Part shown: positions 19,995-37,821 of the stretch, piece after piece
Position numbering within the stretch: position 1 is the first letter of the stretch
Layout: the number at the start of each line of letters is the position of its first letter
DNA from: Blautia sp.
Lineage (GTDB): Bacteria; Bacillota; Clostridia; Lachnospirales; Lachnospiraceae
Direction of reading: 5' to 3'
DNA: 64,000 bases
NCBI GenBank assembly: GCA_022769545.1
Contig: JALEJS010000022.1
Location: forward strand, 1-64,000
The notes under the pieces: model-generated
What the model saw: only the letters and a program-made list of their open reading frames with translations
What the model was told of the DNA's origin: nothing
The model's database searches: none
Made by a program: the position numbers and the translations under genes

Positions 19995-20068
19995 TTCACT
20001 TTTGCCTCTCTGATAATATCGTTACCAACAGTATAAAATCTTTTTCTCACAAGGGCAAGACTTATCCT

Positions 20069-21838
20069 TTACGGAAGAAGATACTTAAACCGCAATTCCT
20101 CCAGATCATGCAGGAATGCCTCGTTGGTCTCATGCTTGATCGAATCCAGATGGCTGTGTGTATCATACAGGTCCTCTTTTACCTGCGTCACACAGACACC
20201 GATATTGGAACAGTGATCGGAAATTCTTTCCAGGCTGGTTGTGATATCGGAAAGAATAAATCCCATCTCTATGGTACAGTTACCTGCACGAAGTCTCTGG
20301 ACATGCCGCAGCTTCAGTTCCTTGGAAAGTTCATCAATGACCTCTTCCAGCGGTTCAATTTCTCCGGCCATTTTTACATCCTGACGGTCAAAGGTTGTAA
20401 AGGTAATACTTACAATATCTCTCACCGCATTTTCCAGTACACGAAGCTCCTGAACAGCCTCTTTTGAAAAATGGGCGTCCTTCTCATGAAGCTCTCTGGC
20501 GGATTCCATTAGATTTACCGCATGGTCCGAAATCCGTTCAAAATCGCCGATGCAGTGCAGCATAATGGAAAGACTCCGGCTGTCATTTTCTGACAGATCT
20601 TTGTGATTCAGACGGACAAGATAGGTTCCCAGAACGTCTTCATACCGGTCTACCATCGCTTCCATGTGCTCCACATATTCTGCGCCTTCTTCACTGTAAT
20701 GCTCCAGCAGCTGCAGTGCCTTTTCCAACGCGCTCTGGGAGTTTTCTGCCATTTTCCGCACTGCTGTACGGCTCTGCTCCACCGCAAATGCCGGCTTTTC
20801 CAGGAATCGTGGATCCAGAATCTTAAATTCCTGTTCCTCTGCAGACAGCTGAACATCTTCTCTCGTATCCCGTATGGTAAGGCAGGCCAGTTTTTCCAGC
20901 ATGCCGGAGAACGGAAGAAGGATCAGTGTCGCAACCACATTAAATACACTGTGTATCACCGCAATTCCTGCAGGATTTGCTGCCTGGGTAAGAAACGGAA
21001 AATGCACCACCGAATTGATCAGATAAAACGCTCCCATGAAAATCACCGTTCCGATCAGGTTGAAATACAGATGTACCATAGCGGCACGTTTTGCATTTTT
21101 CGTCGCTCCGATACCAGACAGCAGCGCAGTGACACAGGTTCCGATATTCTGTCCCATGATAATGGGAAGCGCAACACTGTACCTGACTGCCCCGGTCATA
21201 CAAAGAGCCTGCAGAATACCAACCGATGCAGAGGAGGACTGAATAATTGCCGTGAGGACTGCACCCGCCACCACGCCGAGAATCGGATTGGAAAACGCCG
21301 TCATAATGCTGGTAAACTCCGGCACATCTGCCAGCGGTTTTACTGCACCGCTCATCGTCTCCATTCCAAACATCAGAACCGCAAAACCAATCAGAATTCC
21401 ACCAATATCCTTTTTCTTCTGATCTTTCAGAAACATGAGCAGAATAATGCCGATCATTGCCAGTACCGGGGCAAAAGAAGTCGGTTTCATCAGCCGCAGC
21501 AGGAAATTGTCACTCTCTATGCCCGCCAGACTGAGGATCCATGAGGTAATTGTGGTCCCGATATTGGCACCCATAATAATTCCCACGGCCTGAGAAAGCT
21601 TCATAATTCCGGAGTTTACAAATCCCACCACCATGACCGTGGTTGCAGAAGAGGACTGGATCACAGCGGTCACTGCGGCTCCCAGCAAAACTGCTTTTAT
21701 CGGATTTGATGTGAGATTTTCCAGGATTTTTTCCAGTTTACCGCCGGAAACCTTAGCCAGTCCGTCTCCCATTACCTGCATTCCATACAGAAACATGGCA
21801 AGCCCGCCTGCCAATGTTAAAATACTAAAGAAATCCAT
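20069..21838 (-). CDS. Na/Pi cotransporter family protein with PhoU-like domain
   Basis: A 589-residue membrane protein importing phosphate with sodium. Two inverted repeats each carry the transport motif QSSS (AVIQSSSATTVMVVG near the N-terminus, AIIQSSSASVGILQ near residue 205). About eight or nine membrane segments are followed by a cytoplasmic, helical PhoU-like region (about 340-589). ATG at 21838 with AAGGAG upstream was preferred to a TTG six bases earlier. It is first in an apparent symporter-regulator-kinase unit. Confidence 0.9.
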   Translation of the reverse strand: MDFFSILTLAGGLAMFLYGMQVMGDGLAKVSGGKLEKILENLTSNPIKAVLLGAAVTAVIQSSSATTVMVVGFVNSGIMKLSQAVGIIMGANIGTTITSWILSLAGIESDNFLLRLMKPTSFAPVLAMIGIILLMFLKDQKKKDIGGILIGFAVLMFGMETMSGAVKPLADVPEFTSIMTAFSNPILGVVAGAVLTAIIQSSSASVGILQALCMTGAVRYSVALPIIMGQNIGTCVTALLSGIGATKNAKRAAMVHLYFNLIGTVIFMGAFYLINSVVHFPFLTQAANPAGIAVIHSVFNVVATLILLPFSGMLEKLACLTIRDTREDVQLSAEEQEFKILDPRFLEKPAFAVEQSRTAVRKMAENSQSALEKALQLLEHYSEEGAEYVEHMEAMVDRYEDVLGTYLVRLNHKDLSENDSRSLSIMLHCIGDFERISDHAVNLMESARELHEKDAHFSKEAVQELRVLENAVRDIVSITFTTFDRQDVKMAGEIEPLEEVIDELSKELKLRHVQRLRAGNCTIEMGFILSDITTSLERISDHCSNIGVCVTQVKEDLYDTHSHLDSIKHETNEAFLHDLEELRFKYLLP

Positions 21839-21885
21839 ACACAATATTCTCCTTATATGTAATATGGATTCATTCTAAAAAAAAT

Positions 21886-21927
21886 ATGTAAAATTCACGG
21901 ACAGGAAATGTAAAATCTATGTAAAAT
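21886..21927 (-). promoter_or_regulatory. Candidate Pho box (direct repeats)
   Basis: On the minus strand ATTTTACAT occurs three times, at 21919-21927, 21908-21916 and 21886-21894, that is at 11- and 22-base steps. This matches the 11-base-periodic TTAACA-like repeats bound by Firmicute PhoP, with one of four positions degenerate. A related ATATTACAT lies at 21857. The location just upstream of the phosphate symporter supports the reading. Confidence 0.6.
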
Positions 21928-21959
21928 TTTCTACAAAAAAACGGTGACCAGACATAAAG

Positions 21960-21987
21960 AAATCCGCGGATTAAAATCCACGGATTT
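21960..21987 (-). terminator. Hairpin overlapping the greA stop codon
   Basis: A 12-bp inverted repeat (AAATCCGTGGAT / ATCCGCGGATTT on the minus strand, one G-U pair) spans the greA stop. The downstream T-tract is modest. Confidence 0.5.
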
Positions 21988-22471
21988 CCTCGTCTTCTGC
22001 TCCTGTTTTTTCGATAGAACGAATTTTCAGATAATAACTGTAGGAATCATTCACCTTTACTTCCACACGGTCTCCGACTTTATGTCCCCTCAGAGCTTTC
22101 CCGATGGGGGACTCAATGCTGACCCGGTTCTCCAGAGAATTTCCCCGGATGGACGTCACCAGCTTATATTTCTCGATCTCACCGTCTTCCTCAAATTCCA
22201 CTTCCACGATATCATCCATTCCCACTTCATCCGAGCCGGATTCCTCGGAAATGATCGTGGCTGTTTTCAGCATTCGTTCCAGATAACGGATACGGCTTTC
22301 GTTCTGGTTTTTATGTCTTTTCGCCGCGTAGTACTCAAAGTTCTCACTTAAGTCCCCCTGTGCCCGCGCCTCCTTGACTGCTTCAATCGCCTCCTTGCGA
22401 ATCACCAGTTTACGATGCTCGATCTCCTGTTCAATTTTTTCCACATCTTTTTTTGTTAATTGCTCTCTCAT
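21971..22471 (-). CDS. greA: Transcription elongation factor GreA
   Basis: Rescues backtracked RNA polymerase by stimulating transcript cleavage. The 166 residues comprise an N-terminal coiled coil with the acidic tip region (EARAQGDLSENFEYYAAK) and a C-terminal FKBP-like domain ending in VSIESPIGKALRGHKVGD. The start at 22471 has TAGGAAG upstream. It is 32 bases downstream of the DUF3343 gene and may be read from the selenium-gene promoter. Confidence 0.93.
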   Translation of the reverse strand: MREQLTKKDVEKIEQEIEHRKLVIRKEAIEAVKEARAQGDLSENFEYYAAKRHKNQNESRIRYLERMLKTATIISEESGSDEVGMDDIVEVEFEEDGEIEKYKLVTSIRGNSLENRVSIESPIGKALRGHKVGDRVEVKVNDSYSYYLKIRSIEKTGAEDEEIRGF

Positions 22472-22503
22472 GCTTCCTACCATAGCAGAAATCATCGGCT
22501 TTG

Positions 22504-22746
22504 TCAATTTTCCTCTGCCATATACACCTGGCCAAAGCCTGCCTTTTCCACAGAAACAATCTGCTCCAGTTCTTCATTTACCGGCGGATAGGTCCCGTCC
22601 GGAGAAACAAAGCTGACACAGGTTCCGCAGGAGGAGCTCAGATTTCTCGGTACCGGCATGATTTTAGCCGGAAATCCTGCTTTTTCACAGGCTCTTCGGT
22701 ACTGGATCGCCCCAAAATGAGAATAGAACGTGGCAATGTATTCCAT
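22504..22746 (-). CDS. DUF3343 domain-containing small protein
   Basis: An 80-residue protein with the DUF3343 pattern: an N-terminal YIATFYSHFGAIQYRR segment and a CGTC motif (SSCGTCVSF, about 39-47). The family frequently accompanies selenium-metabolism genes; its biochemical role is unknown. The start codon lies two bases after the yedF stop, so it belongs to the yedE-yedF operon. Confidence 0.85.
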   Translation of the reverse strand: MEYIATFYSHFGAIQYRRACEKAGFPAKIMPVPRNLSSSCGTCVSFVSPDGTYPPVNEELEQIVSVEKAGFGQVYMAEEN

Positions 22747-22748
22747 GG

Positions 22749-22955
22749 CTATTTCTCCAGGCGAAGAAGATAATCCTCATCCTTTTCGGTTACTGTCACA
22801 CGATATCCCTGGTGAGAAGCAAAACGGCTTACATTTTCCTTTGCCGTAACATTGTCCACCAGTATTTCATAGCTCTTCTCTTTGGATGTCATCGCATTTC
22901 TGGTCAGAATCACCGGTTCCGGGCAGGAAAGCCCTCTCGCATCAATTGTTTTCAT
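22749..22955 (-). CDS. yedF: TusA-like sulfurtransferase-fold protein YedF
   Basis: A 68-residue TusA-fold domain with the conserved CPEP motif (RGLSCPEPV, about 6-14). In selenium-using bacteria YedF proteins usually carry an additional C-terminal domain; here only the TusA-like domain is present. GAGGG precedes the start at 22955. The gene lies between yedE (4-base gap) and DUF3343 (2-base gap). A role in moving sulfur or selenium is inferred. Confidence 0.85.
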   Translation of the reverse strand: MKTIDARGLSCPEPVILTRNAMTSKEKSYEILVDNVTAKENVSRFASHQGYRVTVTEKDEDYLLRLEK

Positions 22956-22959
22956 ATTC

Positions 22960-24036
22960 TCAACCCTCTTTTTTTGTATTTGCCGCTGCAATGAGCGTGA
23001 TCACAAGAATCCCGACGATAACCGCCACTTTTCCATTCATGGTAGGACCTTCTCCGGAAGATGCGAGCCCGAAATTATGAGCAAATGCAGCCCCGACAAG
23101 AATTCCCAGGACAGCCACTGCAGAATCCGTATTTCCTTCTCCTGCCAGTACCAGCTGACGCAGCGGACATCCGCCCAGGAGCACACATCCAAATCCTGCC
23201 AGAAGCATTCCCAGAATATTCCAGAGTGCATCCGTATGTGCCACCGGCTGACCTGCAAAGCCGAAATGGATATAAGGTGTGCCGGTCACAGCTGTCAGAA
23301 TCACATTCCCCAGCAATGCGCTGATCAGAATCGCAAGAAATCCCAGAAGAAGCTTCCATTCCCCAAACAGGATCACATCACGGACACCACCCACCATGCA
23401 GAGGCGTGTTTTCTGAGCCAGGGCGCCGACAATCAGACCGGCCGCCAGTGAAATGAGTACCGCTGCATGCATTGCACCGGGACCACCCCCTGCCTCCGTA
23501 AAATGAATAAAGGACGGTGCTGCAGCCAGCAGAATCAGAAACAGGATCTCCACTGCCGGAAACAAAAAACCTTCCGCCTTCGGCATTTTATAGGATCTTT
23601 TCAGTGTATATCCTCTTTTCAGGAAAAACACACCTGCAAGAATTCCCAGTGCAAATCCAACCAGTCCCAGGACCGCATTCAAATCGCCTCCTGCAATACG
23701 CAGAATCATACGGAAGGGACAGCCAAGAAACATCAGGCATCCAATTGCCACAAAGACACCCAGGATAAAACGGGTAAAGGGTGCAGAACCGCCTCGCGGT
23801 TTAAACTCCTTCGTCGCCAGCGCAATGATGCAGGACCCCAGTACCAGACCGATGATTTCCGGACGTATGTACTGCACGGCGGCTGCCGAGTGAAGCCCCA
23901 GCGCACCAGCCGTATCTCTCACAAAGCAGGCGATACAGAAGCCCATGTTTGCCGGATTCCCGAAAAATACCAGGAGCACCGCAATCAGTCCGATGACGAT
24001 TCCTGCTCCTGCAATGGTTACTTTTTCATTTTTCAT
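22960..24036 (-). CDS. yedE: YedE-family putative selenium/sulfur transporter
   Basis: A 358-residue polytopic membrane protein of the YeeE/YedE fold with two internally related halves. Cys-containing signatures include GCPFRMILRIAGGDLN in the first half and GGCPLRQLVLAGEGN in the second. About ten hydrophobic segments can be read. Related YeeE transports thiosulfate; genome-context work links this branch with yedF to selenium. It is first in the yedE-yedF-DUF3343(-greA) unit, with TATGAT (24070-24075) as a possible -10. Confidence 0.88.
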   Translation of the reverse strand: MKNEKVTIAGAGIVIGLIAVLLVFFGNPANMGFCIACFVRDTAGALGLHSAAAVQYIRPEIIGLVLGSCIIALATKEFKPRGGSAPFTRFILGVFVAIGCLMFLGCPFRMILRIAGGDLNAVLGLVGFALGILAGVFFLKRGYTLKRSYKMPKAEGFLFPAVEILFLILLAAAPSFIHFTEAGGGPGAMHAAVLISLAAGLIVGALAQKTRLCMVGGVRDVILFGEWKLLLGFLAILISALLGNVILTAVTGTPYIHFGFAGQPVAHTDALWNILGMLLAGFGCVLLGGCPLRQLVLAGEGNTDSAVAVLGILVGAAFAHNFGLASSGEGPTMNGKVAVIVGILVITLIAAANTKKEG

Positions 24037-24105
24037 TTTCTTTTTGATTCCTTTCCTTTTGATAAATCTATCATACCATTTTCTCCTTCTGTCCTCCAAT
24101 TAATT

Positions 24106-24143
24106 ATAGATGATTTTTAATATCTTTTATAGATTTCATCTAT
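24106..24143. promoter_or_regulatory. Candidate LysR-type operator between divergent selenium operons
   Basis: A perfect palindrome ATAGAT-TTC-ATCTAT (24129-24143) fits the 15-base interrupted dyad bound by LysR regulators. A further ATAGAT half-site lies 23 bases upstream (24106-24111), and ATCTAT recurs at 24066-24071 within the yedE promoter region. The plus-strand -10 TACAAT is at 24153-24158. The lysR gene is two genes downstream. Confidence 0.55.
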
Positions 24144-24209
24144 GAACTATGGTACAATCTCTTCAGAAAATCACTTCTGTCCACAGAAGAATGCAGAAAG
24201 GAACCATTC

Positions 24210-25379
24210 ATGAAAAAAATATATCTGGATCAGGCAAGCACCGCTTCTCCGAAAGCTCCTCACGTGGCAGATGCCGTATATCAGTATCTGTCCGGAATTC
24301 CGGTAAATGTGGGACGAGGCGGATATCAGGAAGCCTATTCTGCCGAAGAAATCATCTATGATACCCGGGAACAGCTGTGCCGTCTGTTTCATTTTTCCCA
24401 GCCCAGAAATGTCATTTTTACCCCAAATATTACCACCAGCCTGAATATTCTGCTGAAAGGCCTTCTTCGTCCCGGTGATCATGTTCTCGTTTCTTCCATG
24501 GAACACAATGCAGTCATGCGCCCGCTGACACAGCTTCGTGCCGGCGGCGTCCGCTTCGACCGGATTCCATGCAGCCGGACCGGCGATCCGGATCTTTCCT
24601 CCGTCAAAGACATGCTTCGACCCGAGACAAAAGCCATTGTCTGCCTTCATGCTTCCAATGTCTGCGGAACCATTCTTCCCATCCATGCCCTGGGACAGAT
24701 ATGCCGGGAACATCATCTGTGTTTTATACTGGATACTGCTCAGACTGCAGGCATCCTCCCCATCGATATGGAGGACTGCTGCATTGACGCGCTTGCCTTC
24801 ACCGGTCACAAGGGTCTTCGGGGGCCTCAGGGAACCGGCGGCTTTCTGATCCGGGACGAGCTGATATCCAGGATCACACCGCTTCTTTCCGGCGGTACCG
24901 GAAGTATCTCCCACACCGAAGAAATTCCGGACTTTATGCCGGATCGTTTCGAACCGGGCACCCCGAACATTCCGGGAATCCTCGGCCTTCATACCGCGCT
25001 GGATGATCTGGAAAAGCAGGATATGGCAAAACGGTTCCGATACGAGATGGAACTGACCGGTTACTTTCTGAATGGCCTGCGGACACTGGACCCCCACGGC
25101 AAACATATTCGGATCATTGGTCACAGACATACCGATAACCGCTGTGCCGTTGTCTCCATTCAGACTTTGTCCGAAGACATGGCGAAAATCGCCTTTCTTC
25201 TGGACAGCGAATACGGAATCATGACCAGGGTCGGCCTGCACTGTGCACCGGCAGCACATCGGACACTTGGAACCTACCCGGCCGGAACAATCCGTTTTTC
25301 TTTCGGACCGGAAAACACCTTTGACGAGCTGGATACTGCTCTTGCTGCCCTGCGGGAGCTTCTTCCCTTCCCGAAATGA
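24210..25379 (+). CDS. Class V aminotransferase / cysteine desulfurase-like protein
   Basis: A 389-residue PLP enzyme. It opens with IYLDQASTASPKAP, has the pyridoxal-lysine region FTGHKGLRGPQGTGG near residue 205, and a catalytic-Cys-like GLHCAPAAHRTLGT segment near residue 345, as in cysteine desulfurases and selenocysteine lyases. Such enzymes are known companions of yedE/yedF/DUF3343. It probably supplies persulfide or selenide for a labile selenium cofactor, which is inference. It is divergent from yedE and 26 bases upstream of lysR. GAAAGG precedes the start. Confidence 0.85.
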   Translation: MKKIYLDQASTASPKAPHVADAVYQYLSGIPVNVGRGGYQEAYSAEEIIYDTREQLCRLFHFSQPRNVIFTPNITTSLNILLKGLLRPGDHVLVSSMEHNAVMRPLTQLRAGGVRFDRIPCSRTGDPDLSSVKDMLRPETKAIVCLHASNVCGTILPIHALGQICREHHLCFILDTAQTAGILPIDMEDCCIDALAFTGHKGLRGPQGTGGFLIRDELISRITPLLSGGTGSISHTEEIPDFMPDRFEPGTPNIPGILGLHTALDDLEKQDMAKRFRYEMELTGYFLNGLRTLDPHGKHIRIIGHRHTDNRCAVVSIQTLSEDMAKIAFLLDSEYGIMTRVGLHCAPAAHRTLGTYPAGTIRFSFGPENTFDELDTALAALRELLPFPK

Positions 25380-25405
25380 TATTTTCTGTTTGCAAAGGAG
25401 CCATT

Positions 25406-26308
25406 ATGGAATTTAAACAACTGGAAGTTTTTACTGCTGTAGTTGATTACGGAAGCTTTTCGGAAGCCGCCAGACATCTGTACCTGACACAGCCCACCGT
25501 CAGCGCTCACATTCTCTCTCTGGAAACCGAGCTGAATTCCCGGCTGATCATCCGTACCACAAAGAAGATGACAGTCACATCCAGGGGATATCAGCTGTAT
25601 GATTACGCCCAGCGAATGCTGAATATCCGAAACAATCTGATAGAAGAATTTACCGGTTCCCGGAAGAAGATCATCGATCTTGGAGCCTCCACCATCCCCT
25701 CCGCCTATCTCCTGCCGGAGCTTCTGTCCGCTTTCGGCCAGAAGGAAAACAATACCTACTTCCATTCCCGGCAGTCAGACAGCACCCAGGCCATTCAGAT
25801 GGTCCTGGACGGTACCGTGGATCTGAGTCTGGTGGGGAAGAAAAGTGACGAGCCCTCCTGCTGCTTTTTGCCCTTTTACAGAGATTCCCTTGTCATCGCA
25901 ACACCTGTGACCGAACATTTCCTGCAGCTGCAGGATCGGCCCGTAACCATCCGTGATTTTCTGGACCAGCCTTTTATTCTCCGCGAGCAGGGCTCCGGCA
26001 CGAAAAAAGCCATGGATCTTTTTCTGGAAAGCAGCCGTATCGCCCCTTCCGATCTTCATGTCATCGCTCAGATGAATGATCTGGAAGCCATAAAAAAATC
26101 CATTGCTGCCGGTCTGGGCATTTCCATTCTCTCTGCCCGCAGCGCTCAGGATATGCAAAAAACAAAGCAGATTCTTCTTTTTCCTGTTGAAGAACCTGCC
26201 TGTATTCGTTACTTTTATATTGTATACAGCAAAAACCGTATTCTGAAACCACATGTAAAGCAATTCATCCGGTTCGTACAGAACTATTATCCCAATTCCG
26301 AAGTCTGA
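25406..26308 (+). CDS. LysR-family transcriptional regulator
   Basis: A 300-residue regulator with an N-terminal winged helix (FKQLEVFTAVVDYGSFSEAARHLYLTQ region, residues 3-60) and a periplasmic-binding-like effector domain. AAAGGAG lies five bases before the chosen ATG. It is cotranscribed with the cysteine-desulfurase-like gene and is the obvious candidate to bind the divergent palindrome at 24129-24143. It is similar in type to CysB/CysL, so it may sense a sulfur or selenium metabolite. Its 3' end overlaps the 3' end of the convergent CarD-like gene by 22 bases. Confidence 0.9.
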   Translation: MEFKQLEVFTAVVDYGSFSEAARHLYLTQPTVSAHILSLETELNSRLIIRTTKKMTVTSRGYQLYDYAQRMLNIRNNLIEEFTGSRKKIIDLGASTIPSAYLLPELLSAFGQKENNTYFHSRQSDSTQAIQMVLDGTVDLSLVGKKSDEPSCCFLPFYRDSLVIATPVTEHFLQLQDRPVTIRDFLDQPFILREQGSGTKKAMDLFLESSRIAPSDLHVIAQMNDLEAIKKSIAAGLGISILSARSAQDMQKTKQILLFPVEEPACIRYFYIVYSKNRILKPHVKQFIRFVQNYYPNSEV

Positions 26309-26808
26309 CGTTCCGATAATTGTCTGGAAATGTATGCACCGATTTCATTTTTGGGGATGCCAAGGAGCATTCCCAGCTCTGCATGCAGATTGTCCTCTGC
26401 CTGCTTCAGATATCGTTCATCCGTTGCCGTGATTTTTTTCCCCTGCTCCATCCGCGCCTTTTTTCTCTTATGTATGGTTTTTATCACACGTACCATTTCC
26501 CTGCTTTCACAGCTTCTCAGACATTCCTTATACTTTTCCTCGCGCATCCGGTCATCCGCAATATCCAGCACTTCAATTTCGGGAATCATTCGGATCAGCT
26601 CCTGCACCTCATCCCTCGTCATAATTCTGCGGATCACAAGTTTTGAATTATCCACCGGCGTAAAAATCTTTCCTTCTGTCTGGCCATCCGGCCGAAGCAC
26701 ATAGTACAGTCTGTCTTTTGGGACTCCATCCATATTCATCGTCGTAATATCCATCACCTGACAGATACCATTTTGCCCGTAAATCACATAGTCACCGGTC
26801 TTAAACAT
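26287..26808 (-). CDS. CarD-family transcriptional regulator
   Basis: A 173-residue protein with an N-terminal CarD/CdnL/TRCF RNA-polymerase-interacting Tudor-like domain (FKTGDYVIYGQNGICQV...) and a helical C-terminal half rich in Lys/Arg. CarD proteins bind RNA polymerase and stabilise open complexes, in some species at rRNA promoters. ATG 26808 was chosen because AAAGGAG lies eight bases upstream; a GTG nine bases earlier is too close. It converges with lysR. Confidence 0.88.
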   Translation of the reverse strand: MFKTGDYVIYGQNGICQVMDITTMNMDGVPKDRLYYVLRPDGQTEGKIFTPVDNSKLVIRRIMTRDEVQELIRMIPEIEVLDIADDRMREEKYKECLRSCESREMVRVIKTIHKRKKARMEQGKKITATDERYLKQAEDNLHAELGMLLGIPKNEIGAYISRQLSERQTSELG

Positions 26809-26867
26809 TGTATACACTCCTTTCTTTTTATATCCCTATGACTTCTGTATTTTCTGAAAAAGAACCA

Positions 26868-26906
26868 AAAACTCCTTGAACTGCCGGAATGATCAAGGAG
26901 CTTTTA
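26868..26906. terminator. Hairpin upstream of the CarD gene
   Basis: CTCCTTGA (26872-26879) and TCAAGGAG (26893-26900) form an 8-bp stem with TTTTT on the minus-strand side. It follows the stronger terminator at 26945-27006 and may be a second stop or an attenuator in the carD leader. Confidence 0.55.
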
Positions 26907-26944
26907 CTGCTTCTTATATTTTAACATTTTCACTTTTGATTTGC

Positions 26945-27006
26945 AAAAAAAAGTACCGGTTTCGGAAAATTTTGTGAATATTTTCCAAACCGGCACCCCC
27001 TTTTTT
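26945..27006 (-). terminator. Strong terminator of the GTPase-nuclease gene
   Basis: A long stem (about 17 bp with small mismatches; 26953-26970 with 26979-26995) followed by eight T on the minus strand. The plus-strand side also ends in a T-run, so it can act both ways. Confidence 0.88.
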
Positions 27007-27038
27007 CTATACAATTTCAACAATTTAATCCCGTTTTT

Positions 27039-29774
27039 TCAGGCTTCAGGCTTTCTTTTTCCCAGACGTATTTCTTCCATATATTCTGAGAGTTCTTCTG
27101 TCATGTGATCGAACAGATAATTCCGACTGCTCTGCCTGCGTGCGGTGATATCCTGCCGGATCTGCTGCCGGGTATTGCTGATTTCCAGCTTCAGATCGGC
27201 TGCCGACAGGCGGCGGGCTCCCTGCCCCATGATAATGATCTGCTCCAGCCCGTCAGAAGTTGCCACCGTCACATCATATTCCTTTCCCAGACGGTGTACC
27301 GTCCGTTCGATATACTGGTCTGCCGTTTCCGCTTCTCTGGTGTAAACCACATATATGTTATGATAACGGACGGTCTCCTCCACATGCCCCTCCACCTTGT
27401 AGGCATCAAATACAAGAATCAGCGTTCCGCCCCGGTATCCCTGATAATCTGACAGAATATCCATCAGCTTTGTCTGTGCCGCATGGATATCTGCTTTTGC
27501 CAGCTCCTTCAGGTCTTCCCATGCAAAAATCACATTGTAGCCATCTACCAGAAGATAATCTTCCTTTTCTTTCTTTTTCGGGACATAACGTGCGGTCACT
27601 TCCCCGGCCCGGACGACCCGTTTGGAACTCTGCAGCCGTTCTCTTTTTACCGGACCGAAGGTTCTCTCAAAGATTTCCTGCAGTTCCTTTTCCTGGGCAT
27701 AGCTTCCCATTCCCTGATAAGCACTTCTTCCGCCTTTCGCCTGTGCACAGCGCGGTGCTTCCTCCTGTGCCGGCTGCGTTCCTTCCAGATGCATGTAATC
27801 CTCCACCTGGTCCCAGGGAACCACAAAACCGGCCCCATGGGCACAGAAAACAGAACCTGTGGGATTTTCCAGGTCCCGCTCGGAATCGTAGCCGATTTCC
27901 TCCACGATCTTTTCCTGCTCCTTACAGGGGACGTATCCTTTCAGTTCACAGAACATCCGGCCCCTTCCGCCGGTATAGGCAATCACCTGATTCTGATAAT
28001 CCCGCATGGCCGACACCGGAGCATTTCCGGTAAGGACAGACATTTCTCCGGCAACCTGAGGCGGACCGAAGCTTCCCTGCATTTTCTGAATATCAGAAAT
28101 CGCACGGCCGATCATTTCCGAAGGGATTTCCAGTCGAAATTCATAATAGGGCTCCAGAAGAATGCTCCGGGCTCTTTTCAGTCCCTGCCTCACTGCCCGG
28201 TAAGTCGCCTGTCGGAAATCACCGCCCTCGGTATGCTTCAGATGTGCTCTTCCTGTGAGCAGCGTAATCTGCATATCCGTGATGGGTGAGCCGGTAAGCA
28301 CACCCAGATGTTCCTTTTCTTCCAGATGCGTCAGAATCAAACGCTGCCAGTTCCGGGCAAGCACATCCTCGCTGCAGGCCGTAAAAAACTGCAGACCGCT
28401 TCCCCGCTCTCCGGGCTCCAGCAGAAGGTGGACTTCTGCATAATGACGAAGGGGCTCAAAATGACCCACTCCTTCCACCGGCTCCGCAATCGTCTCTTTA
28501 TACACGATTCTTCCTGCCCCCAGTTCCACCGCCACATGAAACCTCTCCCAGATCAGATGCTTCAGCACCTCAATCTGTATCTCACCCATAAGCATGGCAT
28601 GAATTTCTCCCAGCGTTTCATCCCACACAATATGAAGCTGAGGCTCTTCTTCCTCCAGCTGTTTCAGTTTTATCAGCATCTGGTGGGTATCACAGCCGGA
28701 CGGAAGCTGAATCTGATAATTCAGAATCGGCTCCAGCACAGGAAGATCCGCTTCCTTTTCCATTCCCAGACCCTGTCCCGGATATGTCCTGGTAAGTCCG
28801 GTAACCGCACAGACCATCCCGGCCTCTGCCTCCTGCACCAACTCGTATTTTGCTCCGGAATAAATCCGGATCTGGTCTGCTTTTTCTTCCCATACCTCAT
28901 CCAGCTGTCCATGCCGGATCGCACAGGAGGTTCCCGGTCTGCGATTCGATAAGAGACTTTTCACTTTCAGACTCCCACCGGTAATTTTCATGTATGTCAG
29001 ACGGCTTCCCTGTTCATCTCTGGCAATTTTGTAAACCCTTGCTCCGAACTCCTCCGGATATTCCTTCCTCCTGACGTATCTGCAGACTCCCTGAAGAAAG
29101 GACTCCACACCTGTCATTTTCAGCGCAGAGCCAAAATAACACGGAAAAAGCTTTCGTCCGGCAATCAGATCGGAAATCTCCCGATCTGTCACCTCACCGG
29201 TTTCCAGATATGTTTCCAGAAGTTCTTCCGAACAGACCGCAACATTTTCCAGAAAGGTCTCCTTTGGCTGCCCCTGTGTGAAATCCACACAGCTTCCGTC
29301 CAGACGTTTTTTCAGTTCTTCCATAAGCTTTTCCCGGTCCGTTCCCTCCTGGTCCATCTTATTGATGAACAAAAAGGTGGGGATCTCATATCGTTTCAAC
29401 AGCTTCCAGAGCGTCATAGTATGTCCCTGTACACCGTCTGCTCCGCTGATGACCAGAAGCGCATAATCCATTACCTGGAGCGCCCGCTCCATTTCTGCCG
29501 AAAAATCCACATGCCCCGGCGTATCCAGAAGGGTGATCTCCAGATCATCCATCGTCAGGACAGCCTGTTTGGAAAAGATAGTGATTCCCCTTTCCCGCTC
29601 CAGGTCAAAGGTATCCAGATAGGCATCTTTGTGATCGACTCTTCCCAGCTTACGGATTTTGCCGCAGGTATATAACAGTCCTTCCGACAAAGTTGTCTTC
29701 CCGGCATCCACATGGGCCAACAGACCCGCACAAATATGTTTCTTTCTATTCTTTTTCTCTGCCTGTCCGCCCAT
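27039..29774 (-). CDS. Ribosomal-protection-type GTPase fused to a Rae1/YacP (NYN) ribonuclease domain
   Basis: A 911-residue two-part protein. Residues about 10-660 are an EF-G/TetM-like GTPase with AHVDAGKTT (G1), RERGITI (G2), DTPGHVDF (G3) and NKMD (G4), plus the later domains typical of tetracycline ribosomal protection proteins. After a linker rich in Gln/Glu/Arg (about 665-738), residues 741-911 match the whole of the ribosome-dependent mRNA endonuclease Rae1 (YacP): LLVDGYNVIFAW, VFDAYKV, ETADQYIE, ATSDGLEQ and GQGARR. The acidic metal-ligand positions appear intact. Rae1 cleaves mRNA in the ribosomal A site, and TetM-like GTPases bind beside that site, so the fusion probably acts on stalled or drug-bound ribosomes (inference). 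GAGGAGG and an extended -10 promoter precede the start. Whether it gives tetracycline resistance is unknown. Confidence 0.9.
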   Translation of the reverse strand: MGGQAEKKNRKKHICAGLLAHVDAGKTTLSEGLLYTCGKIRKLGRVDHKDAYLDTFDLERERGITIFSKQAVLTMDDLEITLLDTPGHVDFSAEMERALQVMDYALLVISGADGVQGHTMTLWKLLKRYEIPTFLFINKMDQEGTDREKLMEELKKRLDGSCVDFTQGQPKETFLENVAVCSEELLETYLETGEVTDREISDLIAGRKLFPCYFGSALKMTGVESFLQGVCRYVRRKEYPEEFGARVYKIARDEQGSRLTYMKITGGSLKVKSLLSNRRPGTSCAIRHGQLDEVWEEKADQIRIYSGAKYELVQEAEAGMVCAVTGLTRTYPGQGLGMEKEADLPVLEPILNYQIQLPSGCDTHQMLIKLKQLEEEEPQLHIVWDETLGEIHAMLMGEIQIEVLKHLIWERFHVAVELGAGRIVYKETIAEPVEGVGHFEPLRHYAEVHLLLEPGERGSGLQFFTACSEDVLARNWQRLILTHLEEKEHLGVLTGSPITDMQITLLTGRAHLKHTEGGDFRQATYRAVRQGLKRARSILLEPYYEFRLEIPSEMIGRAISDIQKMQGSFGPPQVAGEMSVLTGNAPVSAMRDYQNQVIAYTGGRGRMFCELKGYVPCKEQEKIVEEIGYDSERDLENPTGSVFCAHGAGFVVPWDQVEDYMHLEGTQPAQEEAPRCAQAKGGRSAYQGMGSYAQEKELQEIFERTFGPVKRERLQSSKRVVRAGEVTARYVPKKKEKEDYLLVDGYNVIFAWEDLKELAKADIHAAQTKLMDILSDYQGYRGGTLILVFDAYKVEGHVEETVRYHNIYVVYTREAETADQYIERTVHRLGKEYDVTVATSDGLEQIIIMGQGARRLSAADLKLEISNTRQQIRQDITARRQSSRNYLFDHMTEELSEYMEEIRLGKRKPEA

Positions 29775-29807
29775 AAAAATTCCTCCTCTTGTAAAAACAT
29801 CCATTTC

Positions 29808-29818
29808 AGTATATCACA
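29808..29818 (-). promoter_or_regulatory. Extended -10 promoter of the GTPase-nuclease gene
   Basis: TGTGATATACT on the minus strand fits the TRTGnTATAAT extended -10 pattern, about 35 bases before the ATG. No clear -35 is present. Confidence 0.5.
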
Positions 29819-29960
29819 AGAGACATTTTTTGTATCATTCAAATATGGAAAATCCGAGGAAAATGTTGCTCTTAGTGCCGACATTGACTGTTTTCTTCCG
29901 ATATGGACAGAAAAATGATATACTAAGAAAATGATGTCTGCAAAAATTTAAAATTACCTA

Positions 29961-29991
29961 TTGACCCTCACGGTGCGTAATAGATTAAAGT
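29961..29991 (+). promoter_or_regulatory. MerR-type promoter/operator
   Basis: TTGACC (29961-29966) and TAAAGT (29986-29991) are separated by 19 bases, the over-long spacer typical of MerR-controlled promoters. The spacer holds the near-dyad CTCACGGTGCGTAA. It suggests autoregulation by the gene that follows. Confidence 0.7.
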
Positions 29992-30021
29992 AAGCATATC
30001 AGGAACAGGAGGCTGACGGCA

Positions 30022-30873
30022 ATGAGGACAGTAAAAGAAATATCGGATTTAACAGGTATCAGCGTGCGCACGCTTCACTACTATGACGAAATAGGGCTTT
30101 TGAAACCAACAGCCAAAAGCGAAGCGGGATACCGGCTTTATGACGATAAGGCATTGGAAACATTGCAGCAGATTTTGTTTTTCCGCGAGTTTGATATTTC
30201 CCTGAAAGAAATCAAAACCGTCATCGAAAATCCGGCTCTTGAAAAAAATCAGATTTTGCAGATGCAGAGGAAAATGCTGACAGCAAAGAAAGAACGCATG
30301 GAGCGTCTGATTGCCAGCATTGACCGAATTTTGAAAGGAGATCATTCAATGGACTTTGAAGTATTCAGCAAGGCTGAAATAGAGGATATGTATCACTCAA
30401 TGGAGGCAAATATGAGCGACGATCAGAAAGCAATCTTCATTGAGCAGTATGGCAGTATGGAGGAATGGAAAAAGAAATTCCTTGAAAATGCTTCCACCGA
30501 AGCCGTTCAGAAAAATTTTCAGAAAGTTGTGGAGTGGTATGGCAGCAAGGACAAAGCACTGGAGGCGTCTAAAAATCCGGGAAATACAGAAATCGTTCCG
30601 GCTTTTCAGAAACAGCTTGGCGAAATAATCAAAAAGCTGGCAGAAAAGAAAGGTCAGGATGTCAATTCTTTTGAAGTAAAAGAATTAGTCGGAAAATATG
30701 ATTTTGTGACAAAGCAGATGTTCCAGCTGCCAGATGCCACTTCCATGGTACTTGAGATAGCTGACGCCTATTGCACAAAAAAGGATATTCAGGCAGCACA
30801 GGACAGTATTTACGGAGAAGGAACAACGGAGTTTATCGGGCAGGCCATGAAAGCCTATTATCAGAAAAAGTGA
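30022..30873 (+). CDS. MerR-family regulator with TipAS antibiotic-recognition domain
   Basis: A 283-residue regulator. The N-terminal MerR winged helix (TVKEISDLTGISVRTLHYYDEIGLL) and a coiled-coil dimerisation helix are followed by a C-terminal TipAS domain (about 130-283), which in relatives binds thiopeptides or other drugs covalently or tightly. AGGAGG lies nine bases before the ATG. No efflux or resistance gene is in the same direction, so it looks like an orphan regulator. Its coding sequence is more A-rich than its neighbours, which could mark acquisition. Confidence 0.9.
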   Translation: MRTVKEISDLTGISVRTLHYYDEIGLLKPTAKSEAGYRLYDDKALETLQQILFFREFDISLKEIKTVIENPALEKNQILQMQRKMLTAKKERMERLIASIDRILKGDHSMDFEVFSKAEIEDMYHSMEANMSDDQKAIFIEQYGSMEEWKKKFLENASTEAVQKNFQKVVEWYGSKDKALEASKNPGNTEIVPAFQKQLGEIIKKLAEKKGQDVNSFEVKELVGKYDFVTKQMFQLPDATSMVLEIADAYCTKKDIQAAQDSIYGEGTTEFIGQAMKAYYQKK

Positions 30874-30919
30874 TTTTAAATTGTCAGAATACCCGCCGCT
30901 GACCAGTAAAAATACTGCA

Positions 30920-30982
30920 CAAAAAAGTGCATCGCAAAAGCATATCTGGCCCGACCAGCCTTATATGCTTTCGCGATGCACA
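30920..30982 (-). terminator. Terminator of the ara/YesMN operon
   Basis: A 19-bp stem with one mismatch (30927-30945 with 30963-30981) followed by TTTTTT on the minus strand, about 35 bases after the stop of the membrane-protein gene. It also lies downstream of the convergent MerR gene. Confidence 0.85.
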
Positions 30983-31017
30983 TTCCAAATCTCCGGAAAG
31001 ATCCTGGAGGACTTTTC

Positions 31018-32283
31018 TCAGTAATCACACAGATAAGGATTTCCCAGATATGTCATCCAGGAATATTTCAGCCCACATCCCAGATGCCATCCAAAAAGGA
31101 GCACTGCTGCCAAGAGATACAGAAGTCGGAGGCGCTTTTTTCTGTCTGCCGTTTTCAGATAAGCTCCTATGGATTTTTTGGACAGACGGTACTGCACCCA
31201 TTCTTTTTCCAGCATCTGATACATTTTGCACATACACACCACAAATACCAGAAACATGCAGAAGCTGTAGCCCCAGGAAAAATTGCCGTGATTCTGACGT
31301 TCCCCGCTTTCTCCCAGAAACAGATACTCCAGCAGCCCGATTCCCCAGATCAGCCAGGAAGCACGATAGATCCGGTCTGTTTTCAGTTCCCTCCAGGTTC
31401 CCGCAAGCACCATAAGCGGAAACGCCGCAGACTGAAACAGCGACGCAATGGGATGGGTATTCCAGAATTTCAGGCTGTACAACATGGTAAATACCACATG
31501 GGAATCACTGTCTCCGCCCTGATACAATACTGCAGTCTCATACACAACCACCACAAGAGAAATCAGTACCGGTATTCCGAACAGGATCTGCTTCAGCAGA
31601 GTTTCCCCTCTGTCCCGAATGCAGTCTGCCAGAAGCATAATCGCCATGGCAGGCGCAAAACAGAGAATAAAATTGGGTTTTAGCAGATTTACCAGAATCA
31701 GTGTCACAGTAAATGCAAACCATTCACGCATTTCCAGGCCGCCCACATATCTTCCTGCAATCTTCCTTCCGCGATAGGTCTGCTGATACCTGAAGTACAG
31801 AAGCAGAACCAGCATTCCTCCCATCTTCATTCCGGTATAGGTGTCATTATGCCAGATCGTGCCGGACTGAAGTCCCAGATATCGGTACGGATTGACCATC
31901 GGAAGAAACAGAGGCATCACAAACATCGCCGCAAAAGCCATCAGATGAAGAATCCACCGGTTCCCCCGCGGACAGAGCAGCTTTATTACCCGCCATGTAA
32001 GATAAACCGTCAGCATGGTAACCACTGCCAGCAGAACTGCCGCCGGTTTTTCATTCAGCTTCCGTGTGCGCAGAAGAAATCCATAGATCACTTCCAGAAG
32101 ACTGTAGCCTGTCCGATTGATTCCGGAAATCATATGGCTGCGCAGATCCGCCATGTAGCGGCCCATAGGTCCCGGAAAGCCGATAGCCTGCCGCAGATAC
32201 AGACGGTAACACATGGCACCCATTCCTATATATAATATCAGAAAGATTGCTGAGCCAAAAATTGTCTTTTTTCTCTTATTCAT
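31018..32283 (-). CDS. Polytopic membrane protein of unknown function
   Basis: A 421-residue protein with roughly ten to eleven hydrophobic segments and a short cytoplasmic basic start (MNKRKKT). Positively charged loops and a conserved-looking GNFSWGY segment late in the sequence recall glycan-handling membrane proteins such as polymerases or GT-C transferases, but no catalytic motif is recognised and no family name is assigned. CAGGAGA lies just before the chosen ATG. It is 37 bases after the YesM-like kinase and last in the pentose operon, so it may serve uptake, sensing or envelope work linked to that sugar. Confidence 0.7.
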   Translation of the reverse strand: MNKRKKTIFGSAIFLILYIGMGAMCYRLYLRQAIGFPGPMGRYMADLRSHMISGINRTGYSLLEVIYGFLLRTRKLNEKPAAVLLAVVTMLTVYLTWRVIKLLCPRGNRWILHLMAFAAMFVMPLFLPMVNPYRYLGLQSGTIWHNDTYTGMKMGGMLVLLLYFRYQQTYRGRKIAGRYVGGLEMREWFAFTVTLILVNLLKPNFILCFAPAMAIMLLADCIRDRGETLLKQILFGIPVLISLVVVVYETAVLYQGGDSDSHVVFTMLYSLKFWNTHPIASLFQSAAFPLMVLAGTWRELKTDRIYRASWLIWGIGLLEYLFLGESGERQNHGNFSWGYSFCMFLVFVVCMCKMYQMLEKEWVQYRLSKKSIGAYLKTADRKKRLRLLYLLAAVLLFGWHLGCGLKYSWMTYLGNPYLCDY

Positions 32284-32320
32284 ATTTTCTCCTGTATCAG
32301 ATATCTTTATGATCCGTTTT

Positions 32321-33802
32321 CTAATTCTGAATGGAATTATCATTGGAAGCAGGTTCCATTATTACGGCCGGCAAACGTATCACTGCCTCTGTTCCTTCCC
32401 CATAGACGCTGAAAAGCTCCATCCCATAGGAAGGACCATAGTACAGCCGGATCCGTTCCACCACATTGAACAGGCCAAAGACCGATGGCTGGGAGTTCTC
32501 CTCTCTCTCTTTCCCCATTTCCTTTTTCACCTGCTCCAGACGTTCTTCTGTCATACCCATTCCGTTGTCTTTCACCCGGAAAATCATAGTATCGTCTTCC
32601 AGCTGCCCTGTGACCAGAATATGTCCCATTCCCCGCTTATTTTTTATCCCATGGTACAGAGCATTTTCCACCAGCGGCTGCAGCATCAGTTTCAAAATCT
32701 GATACTGATACAATTCTTCCGGAATATTGATCTCATATTCCAGAATGTCCTGATAACGGAATCTCTGAATTTTCAGATAACTGCGAATATGCGATTCTTC
32801 CTCCTTCACAGAAATAAAATCACGCCCTTTACTGAGTGTCGTACGGAAAAAATCAGACAAGGCCGTTACCATCATAACCACCTGTTCTTTTTCTCCTGCT
32901 TCCGCCTGCCAGATAATGGCATCCAGTGTATTGTACAAAAAATGTGGATTAATCTGTGCCTGAAGAAGCTTCTGCTCTGTCACTCTCTGGTTAAACTGCT
33001 CTGTTTTGATGTCCTCCACCAGATTATCGATTCGCTCTACCATGTGATTGAAGCCTTCTTCCAGTTCGGCAATTTCCTCATCATTGTCCTCCGAGCAGGC
33101 TCGTACCGTGAAGTCTCCCTGTCCAACCTTCCTGGTGACTCTCTGGAGCTGACGGATCCCTTCCGTCAGATTATCCGATATTCTCCTGCTGATCAGAAGC
33201 GCCACGATAAAAGCCGAGATACTGATCACGGTACTGATCAGAAGTGCGGTCTGCATTTCCGAGCGGACCTGTTCCCGAAGGTTCTGCAGCTTCACGGACT
33301 CATAGTAGATATACTCCTGAATATTTTCCTGGATCAGTTCCGTAAGGATCCGGATATTCAGATCCAGACGTTCCATATTTTTATCATACGAGCCGCTGAT
33401 ACGCACATCCTGCTCAATTTCCGCCACCGCATTTTCAAGTGACTTCAGACATTTCAGAATGCTCACCAGCTTGCCTTTTGCTGCATCATCCTCCGTATTT
33501 TCCATAAGCTGAGAAAATGTTTTTCTGGCACCTGCGATCAGTTCATGAGGACGGTTCACATCCACAATTTCCGATGCACGTTCCGAATTGACTACCACCA
33601 CATACATGGTGTAGTCAATCTCTTCCTTCATGTCCAGATTATAGGTATTCGCTTTCGTAATTTTATCAACGACAATATCATACCGCACGGAAAACTGCTG
33701 CGCCATGATCAGCAGATATACCATAATCAGCGCAAACGGGATAAAGCACACTGCCAGCAGCATATTCAGCCGCCCTGTCAGAGATGTGTTTTTATGATTC
33801 AT
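32321..33802 (-). CDS. Sensor histidine kinase, YesM/LytS type
   Basis: A 493-residue kinase with TM1 (about 11-33), an extracytoplasmic sensor rich in helices, TM2 (about 188-208), a HAMP domain, and the His_kinase box NPHFLYNTLDAIIWQ followed by a HATPase domain (VENALYHGI, DNGMGM). It is paired with the AraC-type response regulator six bases upstream. In such pairs the kinase responds to oligosaccharides or sugar-binding proteins; the pentose genes upstream point to an arabinose-type signal. Confidence 0.9.
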   Translation of the reverse strand: MNHKNTSLTGRLNMLLAVCFIPFALIMVYLLIMAQQFSVRYDIVVDKITKANTYNLDMKEEIDYTMYVVVVNSERASEIVDVNRPHELIAGARKTFSQLMENTEDDAAKGKLVSILKCLKSLENAVAEIEQDVRISGSYDKNMERLDLNIRILTELIQENIQEYIYYESVKLQNLREQVRSEMQTALLISTVISISAFIVALLISRRISDNLTEGIRQLQRVTRKVGQGDFTVRACSEDNDEEIAELEEGFNHMVERIDNLVEDIKTEQFNQRVTEQKLLQAQINPHFLYNTLDAIIWQAEAGEKEQVVMMVTALSDFFRTTLSKGRDFISVKEEESHIRSYLKIQRFRYQDILEYEINIPEELYQYQILKLMLQPLVENALYHGIKNKRGMGHILVTGQLEDDTMIFRVKDNGMGMTEERLEQVKKEMGKEREENSQPSVFGLFNVVERIRLYYGPSYGMELFSVYGEGTEAVIRLPAVIMEPASNDNSIQN

Positions 33803-33808
33803 AACCGG

Positions 33809-35431
33809 CTACTCTTTTCTGCGATTCTTGTATTCCTTTGGGCTGCATCCCACCACTTTTTTGAATATATAGCTGAAGTAATGAGAATCCTTATATCCGA
33901 CCTCATATCCGATCTCTGCCGTTCTCATAGAAGAACACATCAGAAGTTCCTTGGCCCGGTCCAACCGCACCGAAGTCAGATATTCGATGAACGTCTGTCC
34001 CATTTCCGAGCTGAAGATCGCACTGAAGTAGCTGGGGCTGATATTCACCTTTGCCGCCACCGTCTGAAGGGACATTTCTTCTTTCTGATAATTCTCCTGG
34101 ATAAATGCCTTCGCCTCCTCCAGAAGCGCACTGTACTTTTTCAGAGAATGACTGTCTCTGAGCTTCATGGCTTCCTCAAACAGACGCTCCAGATGTTCTT
34201 CCATTTCCTCCGGAGATGACGTATTTCTGATAATCTCATTGATATCTCTGCATTCCTTGGGCAGTTTTTCCACACGGATATCAAGTCCTTTCAGAAAATC
34301 GGTGATAATAAAAAACAGATCCATCATCACATACTGCCGATACAAAAGTGACTGATAATTCTGTTCCCCTACATTGCGAAAATATTCTTCCAGAAAGCTT
34401 TTGATTTCTTCCTGCGTCCCGCTTTTCAGAAATTTTTCAATCAGCTCCTGTTCCACTTTCTTTGAGCGCAGCACACTGACATCTATCTTTTCTCCGGCTG
34501 ATGCATGAATGCCGGGAACATCCTCTGCGCGGACAATCTTATTCATTCCGATGAAGAAACGTCCGGAAAAAGCCTTGGCTGCCTCCAGATAAGAACTTCG
34601 CACATCTCCCAGCCGCTGCACCACAGAGCCGATTCCCCCAAAGTATTCCAGCTGAGGATAGCAGCTGATCCTGCGGATCAGATTTTCCCTTCCAAATTCC
34701 AGCCGCTTCAGCACTTCCTCCTCAGAACCGCCTTTCACCAGAAAAGCCCACCCATCCGGACTCCTGTCAAAGGTGATCACATTTTCCCACACTTCTGCAA
34801 ACCGTTCGATTTGTGCAGACGCATCCACAAAATCCTGCAGATTCCCTGATGCATCCTCCTCGCGGACGATTTTGAAAAGGAACACCAGAAATGCCGACGC
34901 CGTAAAATCAATTCCCAAACGCTGCCCGTTCTCCAGTACCTCCGCCGTCGAAAGATGATTGGAGGCAAGATCACTCCAGAGCTTATTCTTTTCCCTCTGA
35001 ACGTTTTCTTCCATTTCTCTTCGATACCGCTCCAGGATCCGCTCATTTTCCCGCTCTGTCTCGATCATATCCGCCACCTTGCGAATCGCCTCCAGCAGCT
35101 TGGCCGCCCCGATGGGTTTGAGCAGATAATCGGTCACGCCGATGCTGATTGCCGACTTTGCATAGTCAAAATCATTATATCCGCTGAGAATGATGATCTT
35201 GATCTGCGGCAGTTCCTTTTTTACGATCCGGCTCAGTTCCAGTCCGTCCATGAACGGCATTTTGATATCTGTGATCAGAATATCCGGTTTTTCCTTTTTA
35301 ATAAGAGGATAGGCCAGCTCTCCATCGCTGGCCTCTCCCACAAATTCAAATCCTTCTTTTTCCCACGGAATCGTATTTTTAATTCCGTTTCGCATGACGA
35401 CTTCGTCTTCTACCAAAAAAACTTTTAACAT
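33809..35431 (-). CDS. Response regulator with AraC DNA-binding domain (YesN type)
   Basis: A 540-residue regulator: receiver domain (phospho-acceptor D55 in ILITDIKMPF), a long central helical region, and a C-terminal AraC double helix-turn-helix (about 435-540, SPSYFSAIFSSEMGQTF and DSHYFSYIFKKVVGCSP). Its ATG directly abuts the araD stop codon. It probably activates the sugar import and catabolism genes of this region. Confidence 0.91.
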   Translation of the reverse strand: MLKVFLVEDEVVMRNGIKNTIPWEKEGFEFVGEASDGELAYPLIKKEKPDILITDIKMPFMDGLELSRIVKKELPQIKIIILSGYNDFDYAKSAISIGVTDYLLKPIGAAKLLEAIRKVADMIETERENERILERYRREMEENVQREKNKLWSDLASNHLSTAEVLENGQRLGIDFTASAFLVFLFKIVREEDASGNLQDFVDASAQIERFAEVWENVITFDRSPDGWAFLVKGGSEEEVLKRLEFGRENLIRRISCYPQLEYFGGIGSVVQRLGDVRSSYLEAAKAFSGRFFIGMNKIVRAEDVPGIHASAGEKIDVSVLRSKKVEQELIEKFLKSGTQEEIKSFLEEYFRNVGEQNYQSLLYRQYVMMDLFFIITDFLKGLDIRVEKLPKECRDINEIIRNTSSPEEMEEHLERLFEEAMKLRDSHSLKKYSALLEEAKAFIQENYQKEEMSLQTVAAKVNISPSYFSAIFSSEMGQTFIEYLTSVRLDRAKELLMCSSMRTAEIGYEVGYKDSHYFSYIFKKVVGCSPKEYKNRRKE

Positions 35432-36121: not shown

Positions 36122-36170
36122 ATCTCTTCTCCTTTCTCATTCCTGCCCGACGGCACTGCCCCGGCCAAAA

Positions 36171-37757: not shown

Positions 37758-37791
37758 ACGCTTACCCTCGCAATCTTTCATAGTTATTTAT

Positions 37792-37821
37792 ACTATACCG
37801 CAATATTGCACAGATTCACAA
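37792..37821 (-). promoter_or_regulatory. Promoter of the araB operon
   Basis: Minus strand TTGTGA (37816-37821), 18 bases, TATAGT (37792-37797), about 35 bases before the start codon. Confidence 0.5.

Follow-up and report, generated by a model that had tools for sequence, protein, structure and literature searches.

A Rae1/YacP ribonuclease carried on an EF-G-family GTPase stands in for stand-alone yacP in Lachnospiraceae

We analysed 64,000 nucleotides of a Blautia sp. genome (GenBank assembly GCA_022769545.1, contig JALEJS010000022.1, positions 1 to 64,000; hereafter the window), and found that a single minus-strand reading frame, running from 29774 to 27039, encodes a protein of 911 amino acids (aa) in which a five-domain GTPase of the EF-G family is joined to a complete Rae1/YacP NYN ribonuclease. 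The fusion takes the place of the stand-alone yacP gene. Our preferred reading, to which we assign a probability of roughly 60%, is that the fusion, the one Rae1 detected in this cell, cuts mRNA in a ribosome-dependent manner and has a translational GTPase of its own as carrier. The passages on Rae1 in PMC6613710 and PMC12320835 describe it as a ribosomal A-site endoribonuclease that acts on mRNA. The fusion architecture has been in print since 2015 and is not new: one sentence of Atkinson 2015 (PMC4342817) reports that Tet proteins of ten Clostridiales species gained an RNase domain, a YacP-like NYN, and proposes a part in resistance that draws on RNase activity. The window protein shares that architecture and is of this kind. 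Beyond that sentence, we describe a separate clade beside Tet, the spread of the fusion across a bacterial family, a single clade of fused GTPases and the loss of stand-alone yacP. In the open-licence literature we recognised no other description of the fusion, and the main text of PMC8547433 has no passage on NYN domains.

A translational GTPase and a complete Rae1 domain in one frame

The original prediction had placed a GTPase with intact G1-G4 motifs and a full-length Rae1-type NYN domain in one frame; its coordinates were correct, with the strand unstated, and the nuclease motifs that it quoted (ETADQYIE, ATSDGLEQ and GQGARR) are all present (Table 1). The same frame on the plus strand contains five stops, and an alternative in-frame ATG upstream of the start, at 29804, has no Shine-Dalgarno sequence. 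Pfam domains confirm the joint architecture. The N-terminal part carries the five EF-G domains in order together with G1-G4, and hence belongs to the EF-G/EF2 family of translational GTPases, with domain II scoring under its cut-off; EF-G is among the top structural matches of this half in a fold comparison. We rejected an assembly error joining two genes, because the fusion lies in a single frame in 78 of 80 named relatives (the best 80 of at least 596 in that collection), the remaining two (L205 and L219) beginning at a contig end. The fusion is real. Of 38 fusion loci examined, 35 are whole and three are split into two frames each (L115, L119 and L090, from genomes G042, G163 and G308); the splits may be real, programmed or sequencing errors.

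The C-terminal part scores 175.8 bits against NYN_YacP (cut-off 24.6) and matches the Bacillus subtilis Rae1 structure 5mq9 by sequence with an E value of 4.5e-26. When the NYN part was modelled alone, its PDB matches at E<=0.001 were three Rae1 chains only, and we conclude that the domain is predicted to adopt the Rae1 fold. Foldseek alignments with B. subtilis Rae1/YacP (5mq8, 5mq9) give the same fold and acidic site, with the NYN part 36-39% identical. RelE-type enzymes, which are named beside Rae1 as A-site nucleases in the relevant passage of PMC12320835, belong to a different family. We measured residue conservation over 114 fusions, comprising 36 (the window protein included) and 78 from the named relatives. 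Nuclease residues D744, N747, D790 and D819 are kept in all 114; D841 and E823 are each present in 113, the one remaining sequence having a gap. Aligned to Rae1, the fusion retains the conserved acidic active site. The claim that the C-terminal segment has the Rae1/NYN fold and its acidic ligands has therefore held. The GTPase residues D23, K26, T27, T65, D84, H88, N138, K139 and D141 are likewise kept in 114/114.

Two further features lie between the GTPase and the nuclease. A motif that follows domain V occurs, as the loose pattern [SA]xFCxxG, in all 114 fused proteins and in 18 of 20 unfused relatives. The linker proper ranges from 67 to 142 aa across the 114 fusions, and encloses a predicted helix, ELxxIFERTYG, with E697 and I701 each kept in 111/114 and T705 in 110/114; lying inside an otherwise variable linker, this helix could be a ribosome or domain contact.

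Table 1. Features of the fusion gene, in window coordinates.
Feature	Coordinates	Strand	Basis
Fusion gene, EF-G-family GTPase + Rae1/YacP NYN ribonuclease, 911 aa	27039..29774	-	frame and Pfam
Shine-Dalgarno AGGAGG, 7 nucleotides ahead of start ATG 29774	29782..29787	-	read from sequence
G domain, residues 11-234; G1 AHVDAGKTT, T65, G3 DTPGH, G4 NKMD	29073..29744	-	Pfam GTP_EFTU, E 2.5e-51
EF-G domain II, residues 243-329	28788..29048	-	Pfam EF-G_D2, E 0.002, 18.7 bits, under cut-off 27
EF-G domain III, residues 348-419	28518..28733	-	Pfam EFG_III
EF-G domain IV, residues 421-535	28170..28514	-	Pfam EFG_IV
Domain IV tip loop 3, HxKHTEGGDFR, residues 511-521	28212..28244	-	alignment; Tet(M/O/Q) equivalent SPVSTPADFR
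EF-G domain V, residues 539-620	27915..28160	-	Pfam EFG_C
Clade-specific C-terminal motif after domain V, SVFCxHGxGFxVxW..YMH, residues 629-662	27789..27890	-	alignment
Variable linker, residues 663-739, mostly low confidence in model	27558..27788	-	alignment and model
Conserved predicted helix within linker, ELxxIFERTYG, residues 693-706	27657..27698	-	conservation; helix in model
Rae1/YacP NYN ribonuclease domain, residues 741-903; acidic ligands D744, D790, D819, D841	27066..27554	-	Pfam, alignment, model

The fusion stands in for stand-alone yacP

In the host genome, the assembly of which is 91% complete, the fusion is the only NYN_YacP match. The genes for CysS, MrnC, RlmB and SigH are contiguous, and the gap between RlmB and SigH is only 42 bp, so the yacP slot is empty; the genome therefore has the fused form and no classical yacP, in agreement with the original suggestion that a stand-alone yacP is missing between rlmB and sigH. 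The identities of RlmB, CysS and SigH were confirmed by NCBIfam; the remaining operon gene has no NCBIfam match, and we take it to be mrnC. Where YacP stands alone, it follows RlmB immediately in 16 of 22 loci (<100 bp), and the gene order, where these neighbours are in view, is CysS-MrnC-RlmB-YacP-SigH. It is enclosed by an RlmB-SigH gap of 485-707 bp in 10 of the 22, and by larger gaps in two more. Among 18 fusion genomes, RlmB adjoins SigH without a YacP frame in 11, with gaps of -56 to 239 bp and one of 591 bp; in the other seven, SigH was not found in the stretch examined.

In the 239-bp gap, from a fusion-bearing genome (G235), 39 residues from the C-terminal end of native YacP survive as a remnant, encoded on the operon strand. 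The remnant scores 39.7 bits, against a maximum of 26.9 in 1000 shuffles, and most resembles stand-alone YacP from the family to which G235 belongs (43.6% identity). It was the one clear case in four RlmB-SigH gaps searched for remnants, the best score elsewhere being 24.3 bits. Within a single genus (g151), the slot holds native yacP in a genome that lacks the fusion (G170) and is empty in another that carries it (G239). Among the matches listed for the family and class samples described below, we found no genome with a fused YacP plus a second complete one over the cut-off. Double matches had raised the suspicion that fused and native YacP occur together in one genus, which we rejected because the second matches fall below the cut-off; in genome G039, an extra piece, possibly part of a second YacP, lies at a contig edge. 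We conclude that the fusion replaces the stand-alone gene. The B. subtilis protein, according to the part of PMC6613710 that deals with it, is separate and encoded in an operon with yacO/RlmB, whereas here it forms the C-terminal fifth of a GTPase that is encoded elsewhere in the genome.

To follow up the proposed survey of how widespread the fusion is, we searched 120 Lachnospiraceae genomes, one per genus, counting GTPase matches down to 154 bits (the next separate gene scored 110). NYN_YacP was present in 108 genera and the GTPase in 104, and the YacP domain lay within the GTPase gene in 97 of the 108 YacP-bearing genera. In 95 of the 104 GTPase genomes both halves fell in a frame of equal length in both searches, which we read as one frame. 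The exceptions were two genomes with adjacent halves on the same strand (G031, G036), one with adjacent overlapping frames (G042), one with halves on two contigs, near contig ends (G095), and five in which GTPase and YacP are separate genes (G024, G029, G054, G059, G099). YacP occurred alone in four genomes and the GTPase alone in none; the GTPase thus accompanied YacP in 104 of the 108 genomes that have it, and was absent from all 12 that lack YacP (Fisher p 1.7e-13). Hence, the fusion is the usual form of Rae1 in Lachnospiraceae.

A class sample of 243 genomes contained, among the matches listed, YacP in 161 and the GTPase in 105 (one of these, G275, counted by hand from a contig-edge fragment). 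Again among the matches listed, both were found in 99 genomes (the two are separate genes in 10, and are fused or split in the other 89, not every one of which was confirmed as a single frame), the GTPase only in six, YacP only in 62 and neither in 76. The six genomes with the GTPase but no YacP found are G296, G187, G321, G147, G144 and G173 (loci L243, L244, L245, L250, L251 and L252). In a phylum sample of 199 genomes, searched with the GTPase only, 13 had a match of at least 280 bits, with frames of at least 857 aa in 12 and of 651 aa in one.

Descent and transfer of the fusion

We built a quick tree of the GTPases, with one unfused fragment left out and with support from the SH-like approximate likelihood ratio test (SH-aLRT) only, no bootstrap. 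All 36 fused GTPases, which come from 22 families, fall into a single clade (SH-aLRT 99); 19 unfused relatives are placed beside it with weak support (54), and fused and unfused proteins together have a support of 100. The sister group consists of Tet(M/O/Q) plus three more sequences, of which one is almost Tet(M) (89; both groups together 100). The fusion GTPase thus appears, on this quick tree, to belong to its own clade, outside that of Tet(M/O/Q).

A tree of the NYN domains had 60 rows, one short row being left out and the pieces of the three split genes counted as fused; its bootstrap had not settled. Fused domains, together with stand-alone domains from the window's family and order, lie apart from nine of 10 other stand-alone YacPs (98/97). 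The free tree did not recover a single fused NYN clade (three changes; 2% of bootstrap trees), and one such clade was not rejected by the approximately unbiased test (p-AU 0.52). Fused domains of eight families other than Lachnospiraceae (f9, f21, f22, f26, f45, f49, f58 and f66) fall with four Lachnospiraceae ones in a 13-row group (100/99), in which one of those four, F_L096, has a very long branch and groups with F_L069; those of f21, f22 and f26 do not group with the stand-alone YacP sampled from the same families. Taken with the remnant in G235, this grouping across families suggests that the fusion was transferred into new families, where the resident gene was then lost.

Relatives of the GTPase are also found on plasmids. 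Among 1370 plasmid records matching the GTPase part, 38 of the best 45 do so at 41-59% identity and the other seven at ~30%. Thirty-three of these 45 are Ligilactobacillus salivarius megaplasmids (48-50% identity), and the remaining close carriers are Agathobacter rectalis (252 kb), Monoglobus (518 kb), Limosilactobacillus fermentum, Paenibacillus and Subdoligranulum. Both halves lie side by side in two plasmid records only, among the matches listed, those of Agathobacter rectalis and Monoglobus. The L. salivarius relative that we retrieved (L305) is unfused, has 644 aa, reads HTVGGDFR at the domain IV tip, with no SPVS, and adjoins a gene for ribosomal protein S14. In a phage collection, the whole fusion occurs on two 'UNVERIFIED Bacteriophage' scaffolds from human faeces (L302, L303), which are probably bacterial DNA in the phage set. 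Viral contigs yielded two loci with the GTPase and no NYN match, and the GTPase scores 450 bits against the PHROG model phrog_6880. A PADLOC search gave only matches at E 0.004, which we treated as chance.

Proposed action at the ribosome and alternative readings

The pertinent part of PMC8161019 states that Tet-type factors bind where EF-G does and extend into the A site, and that GTP hydrolysis appears to serve release. We infer that the fusion binds the ribosome, cleaves mRNA in the A site and couples this to GTP. The GTP-bound, EF-G-like body would dock at the factor site when a ribosome has paused and its A site is free, and the unusual tip of domain IV (KHTEGGDFR) would enter or probe the decoding centre. 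Since domain IV and the nuclease can hardly occupy the A site together, the NYN domain, on its tether of ~80 residues, would cut A-site mRNA only once domain IV makes room. GTP hydrolysis would then free the factor, and the cut ribosome could pass to transfer-messenger RNA (tmRNA), which is present in the host genome. The fusion may in this way be a single factor acting on stalled ribosomes, as originally proposed. A bolder version, which we offer tentatively and consider rather less probable than the reading itself, is that the fusion is a one-chain bacterial counterpart of no-go decay, in which the GTPase would sense a stall with an open A site and domain IV would license the tethered Rae1 cut before release by GTP hydrolysis; such a factor would have displaced the free nuclease in much of the gut Clostridia, including by transfer and decay of the resident yacP.

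Several observations weigh against a coupled factor. B. subtilis Rae1 is a separate chain, and a joined GTPase is therefore not needed for Rae1 as such. The GTPase occurs without YacP in six genomes of the class sample, and YacP without the GTPase in 62, among the matches listed; the GTPase may therefore do work that does not need the nuclease, and an unfused relative on L. salivarius megaplasmids likewise shows it existing independently. The tether between the halves is long, variable and mostly of low confidence, and the model has no fixed docking between the halves (predicted template modelling score, pTM, 0.64). Moreover, the statistical link between GTPase and YacP is mostly the fusion itself: among the 154 class genomes without fusions, the two are not significantly associated, YacP being present in 10 of 16 with an unfused GTPase and in 62 of 138 without (p 0.20). 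In family genomes without fusions they are associated, with figures of 6/6 with the GTPase and 4/16 without (p 0.003, with the pieces in G042 counted as unfused). The long variable linker and the occurrence of each half without the other fit a reading in which two independent housekeeping activities were joined for equal dosage and are uncoupled, Rae1 working as in B. subtilis and the GTPase having its own translocation- or recycling-like role. We regard this as unlikely, while ranking it first among the alternatives, since the fused GTPases of 22 families form one clade, most fusion loci are whole, both halves are jointly absent in 12 of 120 genera and the linker contains a conserved helix.

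The 2015 suggestion, shared by the original prediction in its TetM identity and antibiotic-response device, would make the fusion a tetracycline ribosomal protection protein that gained a nuclease: domain IV would eject the drug, with the RNase aiding resistance. Atkinson 2015, in its single sentence, placed such fusions among Tet proteins; the Tet(M/O/Q)-containing group is sister in the tree; RefSeq applies a TetM/TetW/TetO/TetS label to the A. rectalis fusion and to most L. salivarius megaplasmid relatives; and members of the clade sit on large plasmids, two of them with the fusion. Tet_protect is also the best NCBIfam match, but at 409 bits it falls well below the Tet equivalog cut-off of 775. 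Other Tet models also stay under their cut-offs (Tet(M) 249/1420, TetM/W 285.5/1100, Tet(Q) 235/1425, Otr(A) 310/900), and no curated Tet cut-off is reached among the 25 listed of 39 matching families. Nor is the fusion EF-G proper, with 297.2 bits against an EF-G equivalog cut-off of 659.4; it has the fold and domain order of EF-G, but the tip loops of its domain IV differ.

The tip of domain IV distinguishes the fusion from Tet proteins as well. Loop 3 reads KHTEGGDFR, versus SPVSTPADFR in Tet(M), Tet(O) and Tet(Q), and the portion of PMC7456112 on the TetM structure reports that Pro509 of the SPVS loop overlaps bound tetracycline. The pattern [KQ]HTxGGDF is found in 114/114 fused proteins and KHTxGGDF in 19 of 20 unfused relatives, the exception being a fragment, whereas SPVSTPADF occurs in none of these 134 clade members. 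Compared with Tet(M) and Tet(O), the fusion GTPase is ~30% identical and has its own loop 1 and C-terminus. The gene is, in addition, present in 97 of 120 genera of the family, and we saw no conserved neighbour set or operon around 36 fusion loci, the neighbours of which were not scanned for mobile genes. By the tests available (model cut-offs, loop residues and tree position), the GTPase half therefore does not look like a tetracycline-resistance protein, and with the neighbourhood added we rejected resistance as the main reading; we hold it to be improbable. Less probable again is a ribosome maturation factor, in which NYN trims rRNA and the GTPase monitors new subunits: ancestral yacP does lie between rlmB and sigH, beside what is presumably mrnC, and Atkinson 2015, where it touches on NYN domains, cites a proposed role in rRNA and tRNA maturation (PMC4342817), but Rae1 is described as acting on A-site mRNA in the passages of PMC6613710 and PMC12320835 cited above, and the GTPase retains an elongation-factor domain IV.

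Around the fusion gene, a MerR regulator with a TipAS antibiotic-recognition domain (30022-30873, plus strand) is divergent from it. We dropped regulation by this neighbour, as the pairing is not conserved (one weak match in 116 loci). Downstream lies a gene with a CarD/TRCF-RID domain (26287-26817, minus strand), found near the fusion also in L151 and L152 only of the 116 loci, and then a selenium-type cluster (22960-26308) with sulphur/selenium transporter-like, cysteine desulfurase/selenocysteine lyase-like and selenium-associated LysR regulator genes. Rfam gave no match in window positions 20000-40000. Promoter-like sites numbered seven, versus a shuffle mean of 5.3, and terminator-like sites seven, versus 3.2.

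The names under which these proteins are deposited obscure what they are. In RefSeq, the 933-aa Agathobacter rectalis fusion is a 'TetM/TetW/TetO/TetS family tetracycline resistance ribosomal protection protein', and other members are called 'translation factor GTPase family protein'. Both names hide the nuclease, as had been anticipated for a plain tetracycline-resistance label, and the former claims a resistance that the sequence does not support. A natural fusion kept intact across 22 families in place of the free enzyme makes it possible to test how Rae1 is admitted to the A site, and whether it needs help, using ribosomes, a single protein and two point mutants of it. Thus, the meaning of a known fusion shifts: it is the usual Rae1 of a large gut family, carried on a GTPase that, by the tests made, appears not to be Tet.

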